Shown here one piece after another: positions 49,853 to 55,796 of a stretch of DNA of 64,000 nt. The DNA is from Opitutaceae bacterium (GTDB lineage Bacteria; Verrucomicrobiota; Verrucomicrobiia; Opitutales; Opitutaceae): positions 1 to 64,000 of the forward strand of contig JANQRT010000053.1 of the NCBI GenBank assembly GCA_028284385.1, read 5' to 3'. The position numbers and the translations under genes were made by a program. Numbering within the stretch: position 1 is the stretch's first letter; each line of letters begins with the position of its first letter. The notes below the pieces were generated by a model, which was given only the letters and a program-made list of their open reading frames with translations, did no database searches and was not told the DNA's origin.

Positions 49853-50048
49853 GTAATATAATCGATTGAAATTGAGAATATTGTTGAGAGGGAGGGCTTA
49901 CGTTGCGACTGCTCCTCACAGCCGACAAGTTCCAAATGAAAAGGAGCCTTAAATCCTCAAGGATTAGGGCAATTGAGTCCCTTCAAGCAACTACCATCCT
50001 GATAGAAATTGACTCGCAAGTCAGCCTTTGAAGACTGCCGATTGGCTT

Positions 50049-51840: not shown

Positions 51841-53973
51841 CTACTTCAGTTTCCAGACCGTAACTTGAGCCACGTTGTGATCGAAGGAGCGCTTCGTTTT
51901 CCTTAAAACATAAGGCGTGTCGATCGGCTCGGCGATGCGATCGAAGTTCGGACTTAAAAGCTCCTCGAGCTTGTCGAGCGTGGTCAGGTTCTCGCCTGCC
52001 ACCTTGAAACCGCCCAGCCAGTTCTCCTTTTCGGTAAACTGTTCCTGCCAGTCATAGGTGGATGCGATCACCAGCAAACCGTCTTGATTCAAGCGATGGT
52101 GGACCCCTTGAAGGAATTTCTGCGGATTGTAGGAACGCTCAAGCATCGTATCCAAAAGTATGAGATCATAGCCGCTGAAGATCTCCTTCATATTGGAGAT
52201 GTCGGCTTGCATGAATTCCACCTTCTCACGAGTGCCGTCAAGACCGAGCTCCTGCAGATTCCGTTGATGAAAGGAAACGATCTCCCCTTCGTCCGGCAGA
52301 ACGTATTGGGTGTACCCTTTATCCTTAAGCTCGACACCGACTCGAATCATGCGAGCGGTGAAGTCCACTCCCGTCACTTTCTCGTATTCGACAGCCAGTT
52401 CGAAGGTTGCTCTGCCGGTCTTGCAGCCAATATTCAACGCCTTGCCTTTGGCGCGACCTTGGGCGTGATTCAAACAGATTTGAGCCAGTTTCTCGGGATA
52501 ATTCTCCACCTTGAAATACTCTTTTCCGTAATTGAATTCGCAATACGGCACTACCTCGGGATCGGTCTCGTAAGTGTCGTCGGGAATCTCGACCGGGGCT
52601 TCCGATACGATGTAGCGGAAGCCGGCATGCTGGTAGAAATGTCGACGAAAGGCATACCTGGAATCGCGAGTAGCCTCGTTCCCCGTGGAAATCCAAGAAC
52701 CTCCCTTAATCAGGTTGTGCTTCATGTCGAAGGTCGGCGTGGAAAAATCGTCGTACAACGGATGAACCTCGAAGCCAGGAAAGCCTCGAATCGGCGTTTC
52801 CGTATGCTGCCAGACATTGCCGAGAATATCGAAAAAGCCTTTGCCAAATTCATGCGTATCGACTGGGACGGACGACGCCGGACCTTCCAGGTTTATATTG
52901 CCGGGAGCCTTTTCCCACTGAGGGACGTCTGGCGTTTCCGTGTAGTCAAGAAGTCGATACCATTCTTCCTCGGTCGGAAGACGAACGGGCTGACCTGTCT
53001 TTGCCGCTTTCCAATTGCAGAACGCCTTCGCTTCGAGGTAATTCGTTTCGACCGGCCAGGACCACGGCATATCGATTTCTTCAAGCATCGTGCGGAAGCG
53101 ATAACCGCCATCCGCCTGTGGCAGCCAGAAACGGGGACAAGCGGTCTTTTCGTAGCTCACCCAATTCCATCCTTCATCAGTCCAATAATCTTTGTTTCCA
53201 TAACCACCATCTTCGATGAACTCGAGAAACTCCTTATTAGAGACGAGATATTGAGAAGCCTGGAAATCCTGAACCTCGCTTTCATAGCGGCCGTACTCGT
53301 TATCCCAGCCATAGAGTGGGCTATCCAGAGTCTTTCCTTGGACAACCTTGCCTCCTGAAACGGCCAGAAGCTGATTGGCTGGGGGTTCGTTATCTTCCGA
53401 GCTAATCGCCCAAGTGGGACCAGAGGCGTCGAGTAGTTCGGTAGGCAGCTGTCGGATGAGCACCGAACTGGTTTCAAGGTGAATCCGCTCGTGCTCGATC
53501 CCCATCATCACTACCCAGAAAAGGCTATCCCAACCGACGGGCAAACTGATGGGCGTCTCGCTGATCAGCCGATCAACGGTATCACGAACCTGGTTACGAT
53601 AAGCGGTTACATCGTCCGCGTCCGGCCAATCGTAGTGCTGATCGTTCAAATCGTCCCATGACATTTCGTCCACTCCAATGGCGAACATGGACTCGAAAGT
53701 CGGGTTGATCCTTTGATCGAGATACTTTCCAAGAACAAGCTTATTGATTAGAAATGTGGCGGTATGTCCATAGTAGAAAATCAGAGGATGCCGCAAAGGA
53801 TCCGCTCTCTTGTAGAAAGCCTCCTTGTTGATCATCGGCTCGAAGAGAGCTTCGTAAGCGTCGTAGGTGTCGTGGAAATACTGTCTGATTTCCTCCCTCT
53901 TGGTCTCGGGGTCGCCTTCTCGAAGAAGAACGGTATACGGTGTCTTCAGGTCATCAATAGCCGCGTTACTCAT
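51841..53973 (-). CDS. ovoA: OvoA: 5-histidylcysteine sulfoxide synthase fused to N-methyltransferase
   Basis: The 710-residue protein has the three OvoA parts in order: a DinB-like iron-binding domain with H70 (YYGHTATF) and HxxxH at 161-165 (IEHERIHLETSS); an FGE/sulfatase-modifying-factor domain with LIKGGSWIST and RRHFYQHAGFRYIV; and a C-terminal SAM methyltransferase (ALNIGCKTGRATFELA). It joins cysteine to histidine oxidatively and methylates the resulting 4-mercaptohistidine toward ovothiol A. The PLP-lyase OvoB is not in the window. Ovothiols protect against oxidants, which suits a marine aerobe. A terminator follows the stop. Confidence 0.9.
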   Translation of the reverse strand: MSNAAIDDLKTPYTVLLREGDPETKREEIRQYFHDTYDAYEALFEPMINKEAFYKRADPLRHPLIFYYGHTATFLINKLVLGKYLDQRINPTFESMFAIGVDEMSWDDLNDQHYDWPDADDVTAYRNQVRDTVDRLISETPISLPVGWDSLFWVVMMGIEHERIHLETSSVLIRQLPTELLDASGPTWAISSEDNEPPANQLLAVSGGKVVQGKTLDSPLYGWDNEYGRYESEVQDFQASQYLVSNKEFLEFIEDGGYGNKDYWTDEGWNWVSYEKTACPRFWLPQADGGYRFRTMLEEIDMPWSWPVETNYLEAKAFCNWKAAKTGQPVRLPTEEEWYRLLDYTETPDVPQWEKAPGNINLEGPASSVPVDTHEFGKGFFDILGNVWQHTETPIRGFPGFEVHPLYDDFSTPTFDMKHNLIKGGSWISTGNEATRDSRYAFRRHFYQHAGFRYIVSEAPVEIPDDTYETDPEVVPYCEFNYGKEYFKVENYPEKLAQICLNHAQGRAKGKALNIGCKTGRATFELAVEYEKVTGVDFTARMIRVGVELKDKGYTQYVLPDEGEIVSFHQRNLQELGLDGTREKVEFMQADISNMKEIFSGYDLILLDTMLERSYNPQKFLQGVHHRLNQDGLLVIASTYDWQEQFTEKENWLGGFKVAGENLTTLDKLEELLSPNFDRIAEPIDTPYVLRKTKRSFDHNVAQVTVWKLK

Positions 53974-54401
53974 AGGACTGAATTAATCGAGTTGGTGGTT
54001 GTCGCTTCGGTTTATTCTATGGGTTTTTTGAGGCGAGTAAGTGTGAACGCAGATGCTAGATCGGCGAAAAATCCTGGCAAACATAAACCCAAAGCCAAAC
54101 AACCCAGGATCAACTTTGGACAAAGGAGATGATAGGGCGAAAAGGCTTTGTAACTTATTGTTTAGCAAGATCGTTGTCCTGACTAGCAAATCGACGTCGA
54201 ACGATACTACGATCAAGAGAGAAATACTGATGCATTCCGTAACCGAAATGTTAGAAAGGAGTTCAGCTAGCCGATCTCATCATGATGGCCGGTCAACAGC
54301 TCGTTGAAAGCGCTCCCTTAGCGACTTTCGGGTTTCGCTCGCTTTCCCGCGCAAAGCAAAACAACTTACGGGAATTCAGGAAAACGGTTAAAGTCGGCAG
54401 A
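53974..54401. other. Intergenic region before second ECF module
   Basis: I see no convincing gene. The in-frame extension of the sigma gene from an ATG at 54282 is possible but its 40 residues do not resemble a sigma factor. GGAATT (54371-54376) and GTC (54393-54395), 16 bp apart, are ECF-promoter-like but would leave almost no leader. GTGAACGCAGATG near 54050 recalls the dispersed repeat at 9357. Confidence 0.4.
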
Positions 54402-55001
54402 ATGGGCGATTACTCGGAAGAGGAAGATGAAAAACTGGTCACAGCGTCGCTGGAGGGAGACCTCAGCGCTTTCGACGAAATCGTCCGCAGGCATCAGACT
54501 ATGATCACCCGCTGCCTATTCCGATTCTGCCCGCATCAATCGGACCTGGAGGACCTGGTGCAGGAAACCTTCGTCAAAGCCTTTCGCAAGCTTTCCTCCT
54601 GGCAGGCTACCGCTCCTTTCGAAAACTGGGTTCGGAAAATCGCCTACAACACCGGCTACGACTTCTACCGCAAAAACGCCCGCAATCCAGCGGCGATCAC
54701 CGAATTTAAGGCTGATGAAAACGACGATGAGATCGCACGACTTTCCGAGCCGGAGACCCAGAGACGATCTTATGAAATGACCGAACAGGTCCAAAAAGCC
54801 CTTTCTCTACTGAATGCTGAAGACCGAATGCTCTTAACCTTGCAATACCTGGAAGAGTTGCCCTTGGCTGAAATTGCCGAAAAAATGGATTGGGGCCTCT
54901 CCAAAACTAAGGTAAAGAGCTTTCGCGCCCGTAAGAAACTGAAAAAACTGCTGATCAATCATGGAATCGCCCAAGAAACAGAATCGACCCTCATGGAATG
55001 A
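54402..55001 (+). CDS. ECF-type RNA polymerase sigma factor (second module)
   Basis: Taking the ATG at 54402 gives a 199-residue protein starting MGDYSEEEDEKLV, as normal for the family. Region 2 is seen in DLEDLVQETFVKAFRKLSSW and ENWVRKIAYNTGYDFYRK, and region 4 in LNAEDRMLLTLQYLEELPLAEIAEKM and GLSKTKVKSFRARKKL. The next gene starts 41 bp before its stop, showing translational coupling to its likely anti-sigma partner. Confidence 0.85.
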   Translation: MGDYSEEEDEKLVTASLEGDLSAFDEIVRRHQTMITRCLFRFCPHQSDLEDLVQETFVKAFRKLSSWQATAPFENWVRKIAYNTGYDFYRKNARNPAAITEFKADENDDEIARLSEPETQRRSYEMTEQVQKALSLLNAEDRMLLTLQYLEELPLAEIAEKMDWGLSKTKVKSFRARKKLKKLLINHGIAQETESTLME

Positions 55002-55242
55002 GATGGTGCAAGCCGCTCGCGAGGAATCGCCTCCCGAGATCAATGTTAGGCCCGCCGTCAGGGCTCAACTCGAGCACGAAATCGCGTTCGGTCGCAAGAA
55101 TGCCGCTGCCGAAAATTCCATTGGCATCATAGAAGGCATCGCGGAGATATTCGCCAAGCCGATCGCTCGTTTCACCCTCGGAGCAAGCCTGGCCGCCACG
55201 GCTGCCATTGCCTTCGTCGGAGCGTCTGGCATCGAGATCTAG
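54961..55242 (+). CDS. Small membrane protein, probable anti-sigma factor, interrupted by amber codon
   Basis: The 93-residue product has a soluble N-terminus (about 1-65; WNEMVQAAREESPPEINVRPAV) and one membrane helix (about 72-90), the layout of short anti-sigma factors. It ends at TAG (55240-55242), but the same frame continues without stop for 27 more codons, to a TAA at 55324-55326 that overlaps the ATG of the next gene. The tail looks like real protein (IDEMDASFFQDDWSEYL), so the original gene was probably longer and coupled to the Spy-like gene. Readthrough, recent mutation or an assembly error are all possible. Confidence 0.7.
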   Translation: MESPKKQNRPSWNEMVQAAREESPPEINVRPAVRAQLEHEIAFGRKNAAAENSIGIIEGIAEIFAKPIARFTLGASLAATAAIAFVGASGIEI

Positions 55243-55326
55243 GAACTCGCCACAGAGTCCAGTATTGAGAGCATTGACGAAATGGACGCGTCGTTCTTCC
55301 AAGACGACTGGTCGGAATATCTGTAA
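55243..55326 (+). other. In-frame continuation of the anti-sigma gene after the amber codon
   Basis: Twenty-seven codons from GAA (55243) read ELATESSIESIDEMDASFF then QDDWSEYL and end at TAA. The acidic and aromatic composition and the exact TAATG overlap with the next start suggest a former C-terminus of the same protein. Confidence 0.6.
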
Positions 55327-55796
55327 TGAGTTCGAAGGGCAAAGCCTCTGCCGTCCTCATTTTGGCTGCCGTCTTCCTATGCGGTTCACTGTGCGGCGTA
55401 GGCGGGACTTTCTACTACCTGAAGAAGAAACGCCAAAACTGGGCGCAGCATGGACCAAGGGATGTTTATCGAGTCCAAGCTGATAAAATGTTCGCTCGGC
55501 TCGACAAGGCCCTCGACCTTAGCGACGAACAGAAAGTGGCGATCAAAAAGGAGATTGGAATCTTTTCCGATGCGGCAAAGCAGCTCCACAAGGATATGCG
55601 GCCGAAGCTGCGCGAGCTGATGAGCGTTCGCACGCAGGCCATTCGCAACCACCTCTCGCCCGAACAGATCGAGAAATTCGCGGCTATGAGAAAAAGGCAA
55701 TGGGATCGAGACCGCGAGAGGCGCGAGAAGAAGAACGGAAAGCCTGCCGAGCAAAAAGCTGCGGAAACCTCAGCCGAGACGGTTACCGGAAACTAG
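55326..55796 (+). CDS. Spy/CpxP-like periplasmic protein with membrane anchor
   Basis: The 156-residue protein has an N-terminal membrane segment (about 8-29) and a helical region with two LTxxQ-like motifs, LDLSDEQKVAIKKEIG and NHLSPEQIEKFAAMRKRQ, typical of the Spy/heavy-metal-resistance group that buffers misfolded envelope proteins or senses stress. A charged, low-complexity tail follows. It is third in the ECF module and, like the gene at 40.2 kb, links this domain to a sigma factor. Confidence 0.78.
   Translation: MSSKGKASAVLILAAVFLCGSLCGVGGTFYYLKKKRQNWAQHGPRDVYRVQADKMFARLDKALDLSDEQKVAIKKEIGIFSDAAKQLHKDMRPKLRELMSVRTQAIRNHLSPEQIEKFAAMRKRQWDRDRERREKKNGKPAEQKAAETSAETVTGN

Follow-up and report, generated by a model that had tools for sequence, protein, structure and literature searches.

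Class II anti-sigma factors wrap the sigma factor with two cytoplasmic helices, and loss-of-function mutations in anti-sigma genes are a familiar finding. Among the described systems, the closest to the locus presented here is CnrYXH of Cupriavidus metallidurans, in which CnrH is an ECF sigma factor, CnrY a class II anti-sigma factor and CnrX a periplasmic sensor. According to the respective reports, CnrX, on binding metal, acts on CnrY, which then releases CnrH (PMC7689651), and CnrH is derepressed by inactivating mutations (nonsense, frameshift, IS) that are scattered over cnrY and cnrX (PMC4803752), inactivation of either Y or X being a known derepression route in that system (PMC4803752, PMC7689651). 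Likewise, work on Pseudomonas aeruginosa links the truncated MucA22 to mucoidy (PMC6546240).

The window, i.e., the whole stretch of 64,000 nucleotides of an Opitutaceae contig that was analysed, carries an ECF sigma factor gene followed by two short genes, here called Y and X, the first of which contains an in-frame TAG. The features concerned are the following (positions in the window, except for the last line):

54149 to 54175, forward strand: candidate ECF-type promoter TGTAAC-N17-CGTT upstream of the sigma gene, from conserved half-sites and spacing
54282 to 55001, forward strand: ECF sigma factor, 239 aa (Sigma70_r2, 4.7e-15; Sigma70_r4_2, 4.3e-10; TIGR02937, 4.2e-26)
54961 to 55242, forward strand: truncated Y, a one-helix membrane protein and probable anti-sigma factor, 93 aa (orthologues intact, about 110-121 aa)
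55171 to 55233, forward strand: predicted membrane helix of Y (Kyte-Doolittle), residues about 71-91, directly before the TAG
55240 to 55242, forward strand: in-frame TAG of Y, after 93 codons, by ORF reading
55243 to 55326, forward strand: tail of Y, cut off but conserved, 27 codons and a TAA, ending DDWSEYL
55326 to 55796, forward strand: X, a membrane-anchored Spy/CpxP-like protein, 156 aa, intact
G000:C72:319614-325817 (L213 3615-9818), reverse strand: RND efflux operon of the window genome, with the promoter motif about 177 nt upstream

As in CnrYXH, the gene of an ECF sigma factor is accompanied by those of a short protein with one helix and of a helical periplasmic protein anchored in the membrane, and, as in the layout that leads from CnrH to cnrCBA, the promoter motif of the sigma factor also precedes an RND efflux operon. 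Nevertheless, the gene order is sigma-Y-X in the window and Y-X-H in Cupriavidus, Y resembles CnrY in no detectable way at the sequence level, X stands nearer to Spy/LTXXQ proteins, and the RND permease of the window genome obtains better scores from multidrug than from heavy-metal models, all of them below their cut-offs. The parallel with mucA22 lies in the truncation of a membrane-spanning anti-sigma factor; MucA, however, is larger, no similarity is claimed between the two proteins, and mucA22 is a frameshift whose effect was tested. The order of sigma gene, a gene for a protein of roughly 100 aa and a gene for an LTXXQ-type protein is found in many of the 30 Opitutales loci inspected, and the sigma factor of the congener G001 (JANQKI010000109.1, metagenome-assembled Opitutaceae) is 87% identical to that of the window. 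No paper on a cassette of this type in Opitutales was found in the open-access literature searched.

X resembles the periplasmic chaperones Spy and CpxP (LTXXQ), its family profile matching Spy at 6e-7 with an LTxxQ-like motif that occurs twice; unlike them, it has retained a membrane anchor at its N-terminus and is encoded in a sigma operon. In the X family, LTXXQ (PF07813) was recovered in 18 of the 22 members and Metal_resist (PF13801) in 9 of the 22 at E<=1, the X of the window scoring 0.0076, below cut-off, in the same search. The structural model consists of the membrane anchor and a helical hairpin (pLDDT 85-92 over about residues 51-130). It has no match with E<=0.001 in the PDB fold library, so that the relation to Spy is drawn from sequence, and no CnrX chain appeared in the PDB list obtained with the X profile.

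The ATG of Y at 54961 lies within the sigma gene, so that the two genes overlap by 41 nt, and past the TAG the frame stays open for 27 codons up to a TAA at 55324-55326 that overlaps the ATG of X at 55326; the coordinates given in a preliminary description of this DNA for these elements were all correct. The protein has a single hydrophobic stretch, with a Kyte-Doolittle maximum of 1.66-1.75 at residues 71-91, and the TAG therefore sits right at its end: the N-terminus and the membrane helix are kept and an acidic tail is lost, leaving an untranslated gap of 83 nt between the Y stop and the X start codon. A second copy of Y was sought in the window genome and none is credible, the best other match having an E of 0.11 and stops. 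The N-terminal domain of class I (zinc-type) anti-sigma factors commonly, though not universally, carries an HxxxCxxC motif; the window Y has no cysteine and lacks it. In the preliminary description the gene was named a probable anti-sigma gene, to which both its place and its one-helix topology are suited; homology adds nothing to this designation, no Pfam family being found in more than one of 21 members at E<=10 and the PDB profile search returning only an unrelated match (E 1.6). In the model of the congener Y, helices 12-21 and 31-46 precede the membrane helix 67-88, with a mean pLDDT of 49 that makes it too poor for anything except helix positions. From the gene order, the topology, the probable regulon and the CnrYXH parallel, Y is probably an anti-sigma factor. 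In two homologous loci, L175 and L176 (genomes G325 and G282), a Y frame of 157 aa matches the N-terminal part of the profile twice in tandem (positions 1-42 or 1-45, then 6-116 or 7-116), which suggests a duplication of the segment that would bind the sigma factor.

Regarding the putative regulon, the two half-sites, 17 nt apart, stand ahead of the sigma gene in all 12 family cassettes whose upstream sequence is available, the spacers themselves being unlike (a 13th cassette, L166, was left out as its sequence ends too early), and the motif was not seen in six order-level cassettes. Matches across the window genome amount to 7, vs 9 with a reversed control, i.e., to background, so that weight is given solely to the site that recurs ahead of the efflux operon. 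This site was found within about 200 nt of the start of the orthologous outer-membrane efflux gene in 6/6 genomes and, in a second set searched with a pattern one base longer, before the efflux gene in 6/7 (missing in G009). Both sets together give 12 of 13 genomes, the chance of a match in a given 300-bp stretch being about 2e-4; given that these genomes have common ancestry, 12 of the 13 coming from two genera, the sites are not independent events. The operon of the window genome comprises uninterrupted genes for an outer-membrane factor, an adaptor and the RND permease. The likely regulon of the cassette sigma factor consists of its own operon and the RND efflux operon. Another promoter-like site with similar flanks occurs in both congeners, at G000:C43:47127-47153 and G001:C135:99329-99355, on the reverse strand in each case; no ORF of at least 60 aa starts within 450 nt downstream of the G000:C43 site.

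The crucial point is whether the frame beyond the TAG was coding. The open frame and the overlap (TAATG) with the next start codon, which the preliminary description had taken as the sign of a natural gene end, are indeed present. However, they were rejected as proof in themselves, since in 15 of the 39 long ORFs of the window the frame likewise stays open for 27 codons or more beyond the stop; it is conservation downstream of the TAG that carries the case. Profile searches of 252 family and 273 order genomes, in overlapping samples, yielded Y homologues in 25 distinct genomes (15 per search), and an in-frame stop was found only in that of the window (0 of the 24 others). Relatives ending at the same TAG and followed by unrelated sequence were looked for among these homologues, and the opposite was observed, the tail being conserved. 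In the congener, Y is uninterrupted (121 aa), has a sense codon at the TAG position and is 68% identical to the window Y across its full length, both ending DWSEYL; in the 11 closest aligned orthologues this position is occupied by ACA, ACG, AAA, AGC, GGT, CGC or AAC.

The comparison of the 27 tail codons with those of the congener points in the same direction. Differences fall 6, 3 and 20 times on first, second and third positions (hypergeometric P 6.2e-7), and 17 of the 27 residues are identical, against 4.9 expected under neutrality at 54% divergence, a value of 17 being reached in 0 of 20,000 simulations; at an assumed divergence of 30%, P is 0.04. The tail shows a pS of 0.89, near saturation, and a pN of 0.23, and the part before the stop a pS of 0.65 and a pN of 0.22, equal to that of the tail. 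In a relative-rate count with an outgroup, three changes in the tail are unique to the window and two to the congener, which speaks against decay of the window tail. Moreover, a tryptophan at position -5 and a C-terminal leucine are shared by all 21 aligned homologues, those from other families of the order among them (the alignment leaves aside L169, L170 and L180, three distant homologues among the 24 that lack the tail motif). The Y/X junction is an ATGA overlap, with TGA as stop, in 23 of the 24 homologues, and TAATGA in the window; Y ends there with CTG TAA TGA (55315-55326), which marks a further local change on the lineage of the window. Altogether, sequence comparison indicates that the frame after the TAG was protein-coding until very recently, and the earlier proposal of a formerly continuous gene finds strong support in the intact congener, the absence of stops in the other homologues and the codon pattern of the tail. 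Conservation without decay implies selection on the tail for nearly all the time since the split of window and congener; consequently, the TAG arose recently, or is an artefact, or is still passed by ribosomes, the last option being the least likely.

An ordinary nonsense mutation of recent date is the most likely event here, a consensus error being less likely, and there is good reason to hold the TAG for a true allele. We rather favour the view that a very recent nonsense mutation in the Y gene of a CnrYXH-like sigma/Y/X cassette abolished the control exerted by X through the tail. The cytoplasmic N-terminus of Y would hold the sigma factor at the membrane and its C-terminal tail would be displayed on the periplasmic side; there, the Spy-like X would sense stress and act on that tail. 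The TAG would delete the entire tail, sparing the N-terminus and the membrane helix, and translation of X, formerly joined to that of Y by the stop/start overlap, would fall. Uncoupled from X, the tail-less Y would hold the sigma factor less well, and the activity of sigma factor and pump is predicted to rise, because loss of CnrY or CnrX derepresses CnrH. The main alternative to derepression is a possible one, namely that a tail-less Y, blind to the signal, represses permanently.

With respect to the event itself, three options had been listed at the outset, of which the recent nonsense mutation is now the best supported, programmed readthrough is unsupported, and an error remains, given the single assembly. 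An error of consensus or assembly, or a minority variant, in a living population with an intact Y, appears rather unlikely. The species is represented by a single genome, the tail shows no decay, and a single wrong base would be enough to turn an unseen sense codon, e.g., AAG or TCG, into TAG. On the other hand, consensus assemblies rarely carry nonsense errors, and among 11 presumed orthologous genes of the syntenic stretch, compared between window and congener leaving aside matches between non-genes that overlap in other frames, a stop occurs in Y only; the ten others are intact, with no sign of a poor consensus. Furthermore, the nearest observed codons (ACA and ACG) are at least two changes away from TAG; this distance also counts against the nonsense reading, which has to assume that the window lineage first passed through another, unseen sense codon between the ACA/ACG type and TAG.

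It is unlikely, too, that the TAG is real yet inconsequential, be it that the truncated Y remains functional and able to bind the sigma factor or that the cassette is disused. The preserved N-terminus and membrane helix, and the integrity of the sigma gene, X, the promoter motif and the efflux operon, are in keeping with it; the conservation of the tail end in 21 of 21 aligned homologues, across families of the order, argues that the tail matters in relatives. Finally, readthrough, programmed or driven by a suppressor, that would still yield the tail in the window species is highly improbable, despite a tail free of relaxed selection, and reassignment or suppression of TAG was rejected along with a structural signal, as the stop is not conserved in any of the 24 homologues, a tRNA with a CUA anticodon is absent from the 40 tRNA loci above the family cut-off (in a genome 97% complete, a slight limit on this absence), RF1 is present, TAG is the commonest stop of the long window ORFs (14/39) and the RNA after it folds like its shuffles (z 0.10 and -0.08). 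The X ORF likewise terminates at a TAG.

Returning to the recent nonsense mutation, it is in itself ordinary, and its value resides in the uncharacterised sigma/Y/X cassette of Opitutales that it reveals and in the uncharacterised regulator of an efflux pump to which it points. The cassette offers a testable regulon, formed by its own operon and the RND pump, and a tail motif whose conservation extends to the final residue; for the function of this tail, the stop allele constitutes a ready-made test. More tentatively, the C-terminal [DE]W[STIM][EDQ][YWLF]L of Y might be an undescribed periplasmic latch through which, across Opitutales, a Spy-like sensor anchored in the membrane would act on a CnrY-like anti-sigma factor and thus on an RND pump; were this so, the window would hold a natural latch-less allele, which should leave the pump switched on.

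As regards the neighbourhood, a congener gene of 534 aa (L074 1547-3151) has no orthologue at the matching position of the window (49853-50027), and elsewhere it finds weak matches only, at 23-27% identity. The divergent neighbour of the cassette (51841-53973, reverse strand) encodes a 710-aa fusion of DinB, FGE-sulfatase and methyltransferase domains, the layout of OvoA-type sulfoxide synthases, and its congener copy is 90% identical.
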